Assembly: GCA_003602535.1 (NCBI GenBank)
Contig: QQSA01000097.1
Span: 10,499-42,726, forward strand
Reading direction: 5' to 3'
Source: Candidatus Poseidoniales archaeon
Lineage (GTDB): Archaea > Thermoplasmatota > Poseidoniia > Poseidoniales > Poseidoniaceae
Length of the DNA: 32,228 nt
Shown in pieces: positions 117 to 6,850 of this stretch (within the stretch, counting starts at the first letter, position 1; each line of letters opens with the position of its first letter). The position numbers were made by a program, and so were the translations under genes. Below the pieces are notes generated by a model that was not told the DNA's origin, made no database searches, and saw only the letters and a list, made by a program, of their open reading frames with translations.

Positions 117-380
117 GTGTCATCTCCTCCTGTCATCCGGCCAAAACCTGGGTGTCAGGTGGGCCGTTAAATGCAAGGAGCGAAGCAGCCCATATAACCG
201 TTCTGCCGACAAAGGCTTTGAAGTTACATTAACTAACCCGAATTAGTTGATAATTAGTGGTTTTATTGTTAAACTGGGTTTAAAAAATAACTTCTCCAGT
301 GGAAATATGTAACTAAATGTAACAAAATAGTTAGATGTAAGGGAATATTTTGATATGGGGGGTTAGATTGGAGGTTTTTG
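117..380. promoter_or_regulatory. Divergent intergenic control region with repeated ATGTAAC motifs
   Basis: This AT-rich gap separates two divergent genes. A TATA-like CATATAACC (190-198) could serve the minus-strand gene and TTTAAAAAATA (about 280-290) the plus-strand one. ATGTAAC occurs at 307-313 and 317-323, ATGTAA again at 335-340, and the inverse GTTACAT at 223-229, so a dimeric regulator could bind here. TAACTA (310-315) and TAGTTA (328-333) form an inverted repeat. The function is inferred. Confidence 0.4.
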
Positions 381-2663
381 GTGACAATGGTGCGTAGTAA
401 CCGAATCCGTTCCACTTATCAGCGGAGAATCATGGATTGGTTAGCAGATGGGGGCGGCACAGTTACCGAAGTTTCTAAGGCACTAGGATTGAGAGTACCT
501 CACGCATCTGCAGCGTTAAAGAAATTACGAGAATCGGGTGATGTCGCTAGAGATGATCACAATTTACGTGGCTCAAGATACCGCTTATCTTCTCAAGGTC
601 TAAGCCGATTAGAAGCAGATGGATTAGCTAGAGTTGAGGAATTAGTTCGTTGGCCCCCTCCACCGGGCGCTGCAGGTATTGTGCTTGCAAGAGAAGGCTC
701 CATGCTACTACTTGGTTACACATCTAAACCGGCTGGACCTTTGCTAGGACTGCCTGAAAGGCCGATGGATGCTGAAAGTGGAGTAGTTGAAAACTCCAGT
801 GGAAATGAGGGGGAGTCTAATTCATGGCGATGGGCGGTACAGAGAGGTGATGGCCCAACATGGTGGGACCTCGATACCATGAGGAAGACTGGGCCGGCTA
901 CCGATACTAGTCCAATGACACTTACAGCTTGGATGGAAAGGCCGAAAGTGATGGGTGTAGTTAGAGCTCGAATTTTGGAAGATACCAAGCCTTGGCCACT
1001 GGGGGTTGGAAGTTGGTTTGCATCTTTACCACCTGGCCATTGGCCTGAATTGCCTCATGTTCTACGAGATGGTGATGAAGTAATTGGCAGGGCGGGAAAT
1101 ACAGGTCCTGAGGTAAGACCTCATGCCGGAGTTCATGCGAGATTAGGGCGTAGAATCGAACGATCATTAATTGTTAGAACAATCTCAAATAATTGCTTGA
1201 AGATTGTCGATGGAGATCTATTATCTAAACCAGAATTACCTTTGCCAAAAGAAATACTTCGTCACTGGCTTAGAATTATGCATCCGAGATTAAGTGACGA
1301 TTCAATCGATGAGAAATATACAAAATTAATTTCTGATATCGCTTCTTATTCATCAAATTCTCAAACTCGTAAGGTGTTGAATGATTTTCCAGGTAGAAAC
1401 TGGTCTGATAATCATGAGAATGTTATCGATACCAGATCGATCTCTCAAAGAGCAGCAGTGGCGATTGCAAACTTTGCGTTAGAAAATAGTAAATTACCAA
1501 TTTTGATAGATTGGCGTTGGACGCCAGATATGACTACATTAGACCGAATTGCAAGTAACAGTAGATGTAGAATGATTATTTGTGAGACCCAAGATGTAGG
1601 TTTGCCATTCAAACTTACTTCTTTAAGCGGAAATGGCAAGTTCGATTTGGAAATGCCAGGTAGGCTACATCTTCCAATTAGTGTTGATTCTGAAGTCACA
1701 ATTCCAACAGATTGGACTACTCCAAAATCGCCAAGTGAAATTATCTGGGGGAATTCAAGCATAACAAAAAATGCTGAGAACGAATTAGAAGCGATTTGGC
1801 AAGCATGTAGTATATTGAATGGGAATGATGCTTGGGCTGACCGACACGAAAGCCAATTTCCACTGGCATCTTGGATTGCGACACCCAAGGATAGCCGTGC
1901 TGCAAGATGGAGGCGAATCGGGAAAAGCTTGGATCCAATATGGGCAAATCTGGCAGATTTAGCAGAATTCGATTCTGATACTATTGCAGATCTTGCCTTA
2001 GTTGACATTAGTGCACTAGAGATTCTGACCGAAAGGATTCGCAACAACCCTCTTGGGATTTTATCACTCGATGTTAAACACCCTGCGATAGCAACAGTAA
2101 TCTTACTTAGCAAAGAGTGGATTGAGGAGCCACCAGATGTAATAGATACCTGGCTTTCAAATCCATTAAAAGTTTCAGAAGTATTACGGTTGAATTGGAA
2201 TGGTTCCAATATTGAACGTTTGGTAGAGTCTTGCCCTCATCACAAATTATTGCTAACACATGAAAATGTCGAGCGTGAAGAGATGCTAGGAATTATGGAA
2301 GATGTACATTTTTCTCTTTGGAAAGAGTACTCAGTGTCTTGGTTGTTGAATTGTATGTCTACAAGTCTTGGCAGAGATGCTCTCTCCATTTTGGATTTAC
2401 CTTGGCCTGCTATACTACATGATCAAAACCTGAAATCAGAAGATTTAGTCTTGATTCATCACATGCCAGAAGGAGTCGGAACCGATTCACTAATCGATGT
2501 ATTCGAAGGAATAAATGCTGCAGAAGAGGGCAGACCTCCGAAAATAGGTAAGACCCATCCATTAGCCGGTTGGTTATTCCAAGAACAAGTGCCACATCCT
2601 CCATTATCTACAGAATATAATCAGGAAATTCATCTTGCTCTTCACCGACGGTTTCAACAATGA
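381..2663 (+). CDS. Large winged-helix-turn-helix protein of unknown function
   Basis: A 760-residue protein. Residues of roughly 5-75 look like a MarR/ArsR-type winged helix: a helix-rich start, the turn 'TVTEVSKALGLRVPHASAALKKLRESGDV' in pieces typical of such folds, then a wing ending in 'SRYRLSSQGL'. The remaining ~680 residues have no motif I recognise; they are soluble, Trp-rich in places, with no signal peptide and no membrane segment. Start: GGAGG at 370-374 sits 6 nt before GTG 381, which is preferred over TTG 378 (3 nt) and ATG 387 (12 nt). It lies alone between a divergent gene and a structured RNA that begins 18 nt after its stop. A regulator with a large sensor or effector body is a guess from the domain order only. 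Confidence 0.75.
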   Translation: MTMVRSNRIRSTYQRRIMDWLADGGGTVTEVSKALGLRVPHASAALKKLRESGDVARDDHNLRGSRYRLSSQGLSRLEADGLARVEELVRWPPPPGAAGIVLAREGSMLLLGYTSKPAGPLLGLPERPMDAESGVVENSSGNEGESNSWRWAVQRGDGPTWWDLDTMRKTGPATDTSPMTLTAWMERPKVMGVVRARILEDTKPWPLGVGSWFASLPPGHWPELPHVLRDGDEVIGRAGNTGPEVRPHAGVHARLGRRIERSLIVRTISNNCLKIVDGDLLSKPELPLPKEILRHWLRIMHPRLSDDSIDEKYTKLISDIASYSSNSQTRKVLNDFPGRNWSDNHENVIDTRSISQRAAVAIANFALENSKLPILIDWRWTPDMTTLDRIASNSRCRMIICETQDVGLPFKLTSLSGNGKFDLEMPGRLHLPISVDSEVTIPTDWTTPKSPSEIIWGNSSITKNAENELEAIWQACSILNGNDAWADRHESQFPLASWIATPKDSRAARWRRIGKSLDPIWANLADLAEFDSDTIADLALVDISALEILTERIRNNPLGILSLDVKHPAIATVILLSKEWIEEPPDVIDTWLSNPLKVSEVLRLNWNGSNIERLVESCPHHKLLLTHENVEREEMLGIMEDVHFSLWKEYSVSWLLNCMSTSLGRDALSILDLPWPAILHDQNLKSEDLVLIHHMPEGVGTDSLIDVFEGINAAEEGRPPKIGKTHPLAGWLFQEQVPHPPLSTEYNQEIHLALHRRFQQ
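794..815 (+). other. Origin-recognition-box-like sequence inside a coding region
   Basis: CTCCAGTGGAAATGAGGGGG resembles the archaeal Orc1/Cdc6 binding site (core TCCAGTGGAAA followed by a G run). The same 13-mer, CTCCAGTGGAAAT, occurs at 294-306 in the intergenic region, exactly 500 bp upstream, but without the G run. Resemblance is by eye; coding constraint or chance is possible. Confidence 0.3.
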
Positions 2664-2681: not shown

Positions 2682-2945
2682 TAGCCGCACATGCAACATC
2701 GCAGGGAGAGCGTCCGCTCAGTGAACTGCGATACCAATGATGCGGCTACGTGCCATCGACGAAGACCAGGGTGACTCTTAGGAGAATGACCTCTGATGCA
2801 AACCGATGGACAATGTGGTCGGTAATGGGTCCTCGCTGGACGAGAGAGTGAGAGTGAGACAACCAACCGGCTGCACAGAAAAGCCCTGACCCTGGGTCAA
2901 GCCTCCGAGGAGACTGTGACAGGGGCTGTTACGGGTCGGGGCACA
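2682..2945 (+). ncRNA. Four-hairpin archaeal H/ACA guide RNA (candidate)
   Basis: This G+C-rich stretch in an AT-rich neighbourhood folds into four consecutive hairpins, each with a lower stem, a two-sided internal loop, an upper stem and a K-turn or K-loop (tandem G-A pairs plus a 3-nt bulge), the binding site of L7Ae. Hairpin 1: 2682-2748. Hairpin 2: 2753-2809, ACA at 2810-2812. Hairpin 3: 2815-2874, ACA at 2875-2877. Hairpin 4: 2883-2942, ACA at 2943-2945. The distance from upper stem to ACA is 14, 16 and 15 nt in hairpins 2-4, the distance that positions the target uridine in H/ACA particles. Hairpin 1 has ACG instead of ACA at 15 nt. The RNA would guide pseudouridylation with Cbf5, Nop10, Gar1 and L7Ae. 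A T-rich tract follows (2948-2953). No clear TATA box was found, so processing from a longer transcript is possible. The RNA was found by manual folding only. Confidence 0.75.
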
Positions 2946-2992
2946 GCTTTCTTTGCGATTCATTGAATAGCCATCCAAACTCAGTCGATAGT

Positions 2993-3982
2993 ATGGCGAA
3001 GTTGGAGCGCTGCCTAGTCGGTGGCACTTTCGATAGGTTTCATGACGGGCATAAGCAATTGCTTAACTCAGCTTTAGAGGTTGCAGAATTGGTTGAAGTT
3101 TGGGTCACAAACGATGCAATGTCAGCAGCAAAGTCTCCTTTCTTACAATCTTTTGAAGATCGTAGAGAAGCAATCATCGCTTGGGCAGGTGAGAGAATCA
3201 CTACCCATGAGCTTGAGGACAATATGGGCCCTGCACCTTTCAGAAAAGACTGTGATGGAATAATTTGTACTCCTGAAACCCTAAGTAATTGTCAATCGAT
3301 AAATGAGATTAGACTGAAGAATGGTTTAATCCCGTTGGAAATAATAGAGGTTGCTCATGCATTAGATGAAATTGGAGGAATAATTTCTAGCACACGAATT
3401 CGTGCAGGGCTAATCGACAAAAATGGAAAGCAATGGTTGAAAGATTCAGATCGAGGTAAGACCTATCTTTTCCACAGCGGGTTGGACGAGGAACTGAAAG
3501 AACCTGCAGGTGAACTTTTCCTAGGTCCTGAAGATTCACCAGAAGTTGCAATGTCTGCAGCGATGGAAAATATTGCTCCAGGTAGCATTATTGCAGTTGG
3601 AGATGTAAGCGTTGAAACCCTACTAGACATGGGAGTAACTCCAGATATTGGTTTAGTAGATGGTATGACAAAACGTAGTGAATTAACCGACAAGGTCAAT
3701 CTGTCATCTTTTGATATTTTACTAAGTGCCGAAAACCCTGCTGGTGCGATTACACCATCGCTTATCGATTCAATTAATGCAGCACTTCAAAATGATCAAA
3801 CCACATGTATTGAAGTTGATGGAGAAGAAGACTTGGCACCAATAATCGTTCACCTGTTAGCACCTTTAGGAACTAACATAATCTATGGTCAGCCTGGTAA
3901 AGGAGTAGTTCTGAGAGTTACTAGCCTTGCATCTAAGGAACAATGCCGTGGTTTGTTATCTAGATTCGAGGTGAGAAATTGA
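2993..3982 (+). CDS. coaD: Bifunctional phosphopantetheine adenylyltransferase / GTP-dependent dephospho-CoA kinase
   Basis: A fusion of the last two steps of CoA synthesis, 329 residues. Residues 1 to about 150 are an archaeal-type phosphopantetheine adenylyltransferase: CLVGGTFDRFHDGHK carries the nucleotidyltransferase HxGH motif (H17, H20), and 'ISSTRIRAG' is the ISSTxIR signature. Residues from about 170 on are the DUF359 GTP-dependent dephospho-CoA kinase: 'VGDVSVETLLDMGVTPD', 'GLVDGMTKRSE' and 'ENPAGAI' match its conserved blocks. ATG 2993 puts the first beta strand next to the start; an in-frame TTG at 2965 is only 20 nt after the last ACA box and is less likely. The stop overlaps the next start by 4 nt. 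The two enzymes are usually separate proteins in archaea. Confidence 0.9.
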   Translation: MAKLERCLVGGTFDRFHDGHKQLLNSALEVAELVEVWVTNDAMSAAKSPFLQSFEDRREAIIAWAGERITTHELEDNMGPAPFRKDCDGIICTPETLSNCQSINEIRLKNGLIPLEIIEVAHALDEIGGIISSTRIRAGLIDKNGKQWLKDSDRGKTYLFHSGLDEELKEPAGELFLGPEDSPEVAMSAAMENIAPGSIIAVGDVSVETLLDMGVTPDIGLVDGMTKRSELTDKVNLSSFDILLSAENPAGAITPSLIDSINAALQNDQTTCIEVDGEEDLAPIIVHLLAPLGTNIIYGQPGKGVVLRVTSLASKEQCRGLLSRFEVRN

Positions 3983-5608: not shown

Positions 5609-6850
5609 TCAGAGAGGAGATTGATGACGATATTTTGCAGAGAAAATTTCAGTCAAAGCCGGCTCTGCTTTAGACATAACATCACACGGGTCGATGTTAG
5701 TAGGAATGCATGAATTAATTTCTTTACTTCGTCCATATCTGCCTCTGGAAATTGTCTTTGCAGTAATCAATCCCAACATATCAAGGTTAGATATAATTCC
5801 GGAAATACGCCTTGCAGTGAGGAACTGTTGGCCGATATTAGAGCAAGCTTGCTTGTAAATATGGTAGACTTCACCGGTTTGTATATTCCTGAGGCCATTC
5901 TTTTCATTGATTAGAACAGATGCTAAAACTAATTTTTGTTGAGTTGGCAGTGTACGAATAACAGGAGTTACTTGATCGGATTCTATTTGTGCTTGTGCAA
6001 TGCGAACGTGATTTTGTTCGACGATTTCAACACCCTCTTGCTCAGCCTTTTCAGTAGAGACTCGAAGTAAATCTAGTGCACACCTTGCATCACCGTGCTC
6101 TTGAGCAGCTAAAGCAGCACACAATTCAATCACTCCTGCTCCAATAGCATCTTGGCTAATTCCTACCTTAGCTCTGGAACGAAGAATATCCTGTAATTGT
6201 TCAGCATTGTAAGGATTGAATACAATGTCTTGTTGTCCTAATCTACTTCTTACTCGTGGGTCGAGGAAATCCGTGAACTTTAGGTCATTTGAAATTCCGA
6301 TTACACATGCTCGAGCATTTTTCAATTCGGCATTTAGGTTGGTCAAATTGTAAAGAAGATCATCTCCTGCCTTCTTTACTAGATGATCAATCTCATCCAG
6401 CACCAGAACATAAACTCCTCCTCGCATATTCATTCGCTTAACTAATTCTGAAAACACTCTATCAGTTGGCCAGCCTGTAAATGGAATTTCATCCTTTTCA
6501 TGATCTTCTAATAAGGCATTTCCTAAATGAGATAAAACTCTGTATTGAGTGTCTATCTGTCGACAATTTACCATCACTGGATGAACAAATCTACCGATTG
6601 CTTCTCCCTTACGTTGAAGTTGATCACAGACATACCTTGTGACCGCAGTTTTACCTGCGCCAGTTACTCCATACAGTATCATATTGGATGGAATGTGTCC
6701 TTTAAGGGCTTCAACTAGATTGAATGAAAGTTGGTCTCTTTCATAATCTCGATGAGGTAAGGTTTCTGGTTGATATGTGTGGCGCAGTACTTCTTTTTGC
6801 ACAAAAAGAGTTTTTTGATTGAGAATTCCATCGAAAATATTTCTCGTCAA
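5609..6850 (-). CDS. orc1/cdc6: Orc1/Cdc6 replication initiator
   Basis: A 413-residue AAA+ initiator that binds origin boxes and loads MCM. Walker A GVTGAGKT is at residues 61-68, Walker B with DEID at 152-155, sensor 1 GISND at 185-189, an arginine-containing RVRSRL near 199-204, and sensor 2 GDAR at 253-256. The C-terminal ~120 residues form the winged helix that contacts DNA. The start is TTG 6850: AGGAGGTG (minus strand, + 6858-6865) ends 7 nt before it, and the protein begins MTRNIFDGIL. A TATA-like CCTTATATGG lies further upstream (+ 6934-6943). In archaea such genes usually sit next to the origin they serve, which points to the AT-rich region just upstream. Confidence 0.95.
   Translation of the reverse strand: MTRNIFDGILNQKTLFVQKEVLRHTYQPETLPHRDYERDQLSFNLVEALKGHIPSNMILYGVTGAGKTAVTRYVCDQLQRKGEAIGRFVHPVMVNCRQIDTQYRVLSHLGNALLEDHEKDEIPFTGWPTDRVFSELVKRMNMRGGVYVLVLDEIDHLVKKAGDDLLYNLTNLNAELKNARACVIGISNDLKFTDFLDPRVRSRLGQQDIVFNPYNAEQLQDILRSRAKVGISQDAIGAGVIELCAALAAQEHGDARCALDLLRVSTEKAEQEGVEIVEQNHVRIAQAQIESDQVTPVIRTLPTQQKLVLASVLINEKNGLRNIQTGEVYHIYKQACSNIGQQFLTARRISGIISNLDMLGLITAKTISRGRYGRSKEINSCIPTNIDPCDVMSKAEPALTEIFSAKYRHQSPL

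Follow-up and report, generated by a model that had tools for sequence, protein, structure and literature searches.

Archaeal H/ACA guide RNAs, the class proposed here for the RNA under study, mostly have one hairpin and rarely two or three (PMC7991803); Pf7 has three (PMC2584109). In these RNAs the GA stem follows a rule of 10 positions (PMC4652768). Pab40 guides P. abyssi Psi2588 in vitro (PMC6138745); it also guides Psi2016 in vitro, and Pab U2016 corresponds to position 1956 of Haloarcula, 1915 of E. coli and 2258 of yeast (PMC2584109). Pab Psi2588 would correspond to E. coli 2496 if an inferred offset of 92 holds.

We analysed a stretch of 32,228 nucleotides from a Candidatus Poseidoniales archaeon (assembly GCA_003602535.1, contig QQSA01000097.1, positions 10,499 to 42,726 of the forward strand), called the window below. 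Positions 2682-2945 of its plus strand contain four tandem K-turn hairpins of H/ACA type, about 265 nt in all, joined by single-stranded linkers of 4-8 nt. We consider it highly probable (roughly 0.9), judging from sequence comparison, that they form a single non-coding H/ACA guide RNA of the HgcG/Pab40/Pf7/Af4 kind with four tandem pseudouridylation units, not three. An initial annotation had read the region as a four-unit K-turn H/ACA RNA, a reading now supported by pairing, K-turns, guide pockets, HgcG homology and partner genes; it had rightly called four units unusual, given the one to three described so far (PMC7991803; PMC2584109). Fixed throughout one archaeal order, it would exceed every other archaeal H/ACA guide RNA known to us in its number of units.

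Fold and comparative support of the hairpin array

All four hairpins lie on the plus strand and are supported by pair counts. Hairpin 1 (H1, 2682..2748), which covariance model R1 also recovers from all genera examined in the order, has a lower stem at 2682-2689/2741-2748, a GA stem at 2698-2707/2723-2732, a C-stem at 2708-2711/2716-2719 and the bulge AGU at 2720-2722. Hairpin 2 (H2, 2753..2809), homologous to hairpin 1 of HgcG/Pab40, has the corresponding parts at 2753-2758/2804-2809, 2765-2774/2788-2797 and 2775-2777/2782-2784, with the bulge AAU at 2785-2787. Hairpin 3 (H3, 2815..2874), found with model R2 in 226/244 genomes of the order, is built of a lower stem at 2815-2823/2866-2874 and a GA stem at 2831-2840/2850-2859 with a top C.A pair; its bulge is AGU (2847-2849) and its GAGA loop is closed by C2841-G2846. 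Hairpin 4 (H4, 2883..2942), homologous to Pab40.3/Pf7-III/Af4.3, has a lower stem at 2883-2892/2933-2942, a GA stem at 2900-2908/2918-2927, the bulge UGU at 2915-2917 and a GAGA loop closed by G2909-C2914. The lower stems of 8, 6, 8 and 10 bp proposed initially are all in place, that of H3 being extendable to 9 bp, and each upper stem does end in G.A/A.G pairs with the 3-nt bulge AGU, AAU, AGU or UGU, respectively.

For comparison we aligned 24 homologues (alignment A1), wrote the structure pair by pair and scored 68 pairs. All four hairpins show the same K-turn core in 24/24 rows: GA on the 5′ strand, three bulged nucleotides of which the last is U, and again GA on the 3′ strand. Standard pairs occupy 95.2% of stem cells, compared to 86.8% in shuffles, and two-sided changes are seen at 40 of the 68 pairs, compared to 14.1 ± 2.4; none of 500 shuffles matched any pairing measure of A1. 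When partners were slid by 1-3 columns, pairing was only 33-43%. Every helix longer than one pair contributes two-sided changes. Relatives thus keep the stems by compensatory change, and a stem-internal loop-stem hairpin is maintained by base pairing in all four units. The same annotation had taken the opposite closing pairs (C-G and G-C) of the GAGA loops in H3 and H4 for a covariation-like sign; this is a comparison of paralogues, and the loops vary in relatives, so the argument falls. The folding energy of the single sequence is moderately unusual (z -2.78; 0/200 shuffles fold as well). It is a weaker argument than the comparative evidence, which is decisive for the structure.

The 10-position rule for the GA stem is followed exactly in H1 and H2, and in H3 if C2831.A2859 is counted; the H4 stem has 10 positions on the 3′ strand and 9 on the 5′ strand.

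Guide pockets, predicted rRNA targets and ACA boxes

In the mechanism we propose, each unit would consist of a stem, a pocket, a 10-position GA stem and a K-turn, with L7Ae bound to the K-turn and Cbf5-Nop10-Gar1 to the remainder. The pocket would pair with 23S rRNA and present one U for isomerisation to pseudouridine. The predicted sites (E. coli numbering) are U2606 for H1, U2496 for H2, U2554 (or 2555, in the A-loop) for H3 and U1915 (helix 69) for H4, which would put all four in the working centre of the large subunit, at the ribosome's functional core. Conserved structure, invariant K-turns and guides, homology and target complementarity in rank tests are directly supported by the data; that the RNA is transcribed as a single molecule, assembles into an RNP and directs the modifications is what we infer.

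The pocket of H1 is formed by GCAAC (2693..2697) and ACC (2733..2735), both invariant (24/24), which pair with GUUGC 3′ and GGU 5′ of the 23S U at E. coli 2606, the latter duplex being only 3 bp long. In H2, CGAAG (2760..2764) and GCAA (2798..2801), again invariant in 24/24, match CUUCG 3′ and UUGC 5′ of the U at 2496. H3 carries AAUGGGU (2824..2830; core UGGGU in 23/24) and (A)CAACC (2859..2864; invariant, 24/24), complementary to GCCCAUU and GGUUG(U) of the 23S A-loop at 2554/2555. The guides of H4 are GGGUCA (2894..2899; invariant, 24/24), pairing with UGACCC 3′ of U1915, and GUUAC (2928..2932), which pairs with GUAAC 5′ of it and is kept in 18/24 rows with changes at its end only. Paired guide bases are thus invariant or nearly so in A1, while most of the surrounding stems vary.

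Targets were scored with guides abutting the upper stem over 635 invariant U columns (23S of seven genomes, 16S of five; for two of the seven, 23S was taken from another species of the same genus). Each pocket has one best site, ranking 1 of 635, and 0/500 permuted guides reach the scores. Mean scores of the best targets (next best in brackets) are 8.4 (0.9) for H1, 11.4 (8.9) for H2, 10.4 (3.6) for H3 and 11.7 (1.7) for H4. Mapped on E. coli 23S, the winners are positions 2606, 2496, 2555 and 1915, respectively; the H3 site becomes 2554 if C2831.A2859 is the tenth GA-stem position under the 14-15 nt rule (PMC4652768). Every pocket therefore shows two-nucleotide-spaced complementarity to an rRNA U at one site apiece, and the site is the same across the seven genomes, weakly so for H3 in three of them. 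No 16S target ranked first for any pocket in the five-genome 16S alignment. Targets offering H1 a longer duplex, such as 23S position 414, were rejected as single-genome matches not shared across genomes. Target sites are nearly invariant within the phylum and so offer no variation in which guide-target covariation could show.

In three sister-family genera, g14, g17 and g20 (loci L124, L130 and L121), the guides of hairpin 3 are altered, e.g. AAGGU/ACUACC, and fit the A-loop poorly; those of g17 have a higher score at E. coli 2585/2586, close to where Haloferax HP1 has been proposed to act. Retargeting or decay are possible explanations of this sequence change.

Yeast pseudouridines include Psi2258, 2865, 2923 and 2975 (PMC8307265), and the equivalence of yeast Um2921 with Um2552 fixes the offset at 369 (PMC2584109), which places Psi2865, 2923 and 2975 on 2496, 2554 and 2606. 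Together with the Pab40 equivalences, this gives H2 and H4 counterparts that have been studied by experiment, and puts H1 and H3 on sites modified in eukaryotes. Among the papers searched, none mentions both Poseidoniales and pseudouridine.

The ACA boxes of H3 (2875..2877, 15-16 nt from the upper stem) and H4 (2943..2945, 15 nt) are present in 24/24 rows. The ACA after H2 (2810..2812) lies 12 nt from the upper stem and is not conserved: 7/19 genus rows have ACA and 12/19 have ACU. After H1, ACA is absent throughout, with ACG, AUG or GCG in its place. An ACA/ANA box at 14-16 nt is therefore invariant at H3 and H4 only, and the initial annotation, which had placed such boxes after hairpins 2-4, overstated them in the case of H2. 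Several three-hairpin relatives in the phylum have the H2 ACA at 14 nt, which argues that the box decayed in the order. This erosion is seen in the same order in which hairpin 1 would have been added upstream. H1 and H2 would either function without an ACA box or function poorly. We entertain, tentatively and with somewhat more doubt than belief, the idea that the two 5′ units are active without a canonical ACA, with Cbf5 held by the array or by neighbouring units and one particle serving four ribosomal sites. Were this so, the sites that one particle modifies on a single ribosome would lie around the peptidyl-transferase centre, the A-loop and helix 69. Whether a unit within an array can do without the ACA box is the question that units 1 and 2 raise.

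Distribution, gene neighbourhood and alternative readings

BLASTN detected the region in 24/26 other genomes searched within the genus; six more genera of the family also have it. Of two covariance models, R1 represents hairpin 1 and R2 hairpins 3+4. R2 matched in 226/244 genomes of the order, covering 22/22 genera. Within the family, R1 located hairpin 1 upstream; once filters were switched off, it did so in all sister-family loci examined as well, the weakest matches being those of L116 (E = 0.03) and L164 (E = 0.002). Hairpin 2 is visible between hairpin 1 and hairpins 3+4. H1 is thus present in both families and in all genera examined in the order.

In 29/29 loci tested from the order, the RNA is flanked by a homologue of a 761-aa gene on one side and by a coaD/dephospho-CoA kinase fusion gene on the other. 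The upstream gene (378..2663, plus strand; 761 aa) belongs to no Pfam family and has only a weak match to an ArsR-type helix-turn-helix; its sequence changes rapidly (about 22-67% identity), but order-wide it has stayed beside the RNA. The downstream gene (2963..3982, plus strand) is a 339-aa ORF that combines a CoaD-like phosphopantetheine adenylyltransferase with a GTP-dependent dephospho-CoA kinase (DUF359); this fusion, kept across the order, joins the last two steps of CoA synthesis. Neither neighbour stands beside the RNA outside the order, in the other orders of the phylum that were checked. No clear promoter stands directly before the RNA, and a promoter/terminator scan of bacterial type was uninformative; the RNA may be cut out of a longer transcript, or its start may lie within the upstream gene. 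A Cdc6/Orc1-type replication initiator gene (5609..6850, minus strand) is found about 2.7 kb from the RNA, and a replication origin could be located near it.

As for partner proteins, the genome encodes a Cbf5 equivalog and two L7Ae-family proteins. Nop10 was not found in the source MAG. Since this MAG is about 92% complete and Nop10 occurs in 56/61 genomes, its absence is probably a gap.

The position of the coaD fusion, about 50 nt downstream by our distance in the window and adjoining the RNA in every order locus tested, would suit a cis-regulatory leader of that gene, e.g. an L7Ae-autoregulated mRNA leader, instead of a trans-acting guide. We regard this as very improbable: other orders of the phylum have the same RNA without a coaD neighbour, so that conservation of the neighbours ends with the order and speaks against a role in cis; moreover, the pockets match rRNA, and an L7Ae leader would need one K-turn, not four guide pockets. 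The short single-stranded linkers and the Haloferax arrangement, in which a long spacer keeps two homologous hairpins apart (PMC2584109), would be compatible with processing of the array into separate guide RNAs of one or two hairpins. This too is improbable, given that the tandem order of the units is kept throughout the order and that the Pab40 RNA-seq transcript spans 234 nt, more than one unit (PMC4652768).

It is also possible, though unlikely, that only hairpins 2-4 (or 3-4) guide and that hairpin 1 is non-modifying, for instance a cap that binds L7Ae and serves to stabilise the RNA or to process it. The lack of an ACA box after H1 everywhere fits such a role, as does its best target duplex of only 3+5 bp, the lower limit reported for eukaryotes (PMC7991803). 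Against it stand the guides invariant in 24/24 rows and a site that ranks 1/635 with 0/500 permutations as good; that site is also a yeast pseudouridine position, and an archaeal duplex is reported to be productive with 1 bp on its 3′ side (Pa35.2-L2549; PMC4652768). We therefore retain four guide units as the preferred reading.

Relation to HgcG and other described guide RNAs

At the gathering threshold, Rfam gave no match in the window. The HgcG covariance model (RF00064) nevertheless aligns with the RNA from end to end (E = 2e-4), at 22.6 bits versus a gathering score of 77. At E ≤ 1 the model finds HgcG in 47/194 genomes of the phylum, only one of them over the gathering score. The phylum RNAs that we read have three hairpins (two in shorter matches), and their guides are, with some variation, those of H2 (CGAAG/GCAA), H3 (GGGU/CAACC) and H4 (GGGUCA/GUUA). 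Taken at face value, the Rfam alignment would equate HgcG hairpin 1 with H1; we rejected this, as the three-hairpin RNAs of the phylum carry the guides of H2. It follows that the four-unit RNA corresponds to HgcG with an added 5′ unit. Guides for the equivalents of E. coli 2496 and 1915 occur in H2 and H4 in the same order as in HgcG; the number of hairpins is four, here and across the order, instead of three. By its sequence, the window RNA belongs to Rfam HgcG (Pab40/Pf7/Af4) as a divergent member. The initial annotation had missed both the identities of the targets and the fact that units 2-4 represent the already described HgcG RNA, with unit 1 as the novelty. A scan for a guessed Thermococcus-type H2 site matched only records labelled bacterial.

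Hairpin 1 was not found in two class-level outgroup genomes (L131 and L132), which have hairpins 2-4. Because H1 is order-wide and was not found in this outgroup, the four-unit RNA is a derived state of the whole order. The best explanation of these sequences is that H2-H4 were inherited from a phylum-wide three-hairpin RNA, to which H1 was joined no later than when the order arose. A guide unit would thereby have been acquired since the class-level outgroup split off, and a known multi-guide RNA would be seen growing by one unit. No published description of an H1-type fourth unit was found in our literature search.

HgcG/Pab40/Pf7 of Thermococcales shares tandem K-turn hairpins with the window RNA. 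Its first hairpin corresponds to H2 (Pab40.1, Pab U2588, equivalent to E. coli 2496 by the inferred offset) and its last to H4 (Pab40.3, Pab U2016, equivalent to E. coli 1915); it differs in having three hairpins, not four, and in the reported target of the middle one (Pa40.2-L1932). Af4 of Archaeoglobus fulgidus is a three-unit RNA whose Af4.3, a relative of Pab40.3, can guide the U1915 equivalent. Af4.2b has 23S 2601 as its target, which may be close to the A-loop site of H3. In contrast to the window RNA, Af4.1 targets 16S 1167, and Af4 has no fourth unit. HP1 and HP2 of Haloferax volcanii are homologues of Pf7 stems II and III, and HP2 has been proposed for Psi 1915/1917; unlike the window RNA, these are two hairpins with a long spacer, HP1 being proposed for E. 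coli 2586. The H/ACA-like RNAs of Pyrobaculum resemble the window RNA in that their guide units depart from canonical box and stem rules. They do so, however, by loss of the lower stem, whereas the window RNA keeps its lower stems and has lost ACA in H1 and mostly in H2.
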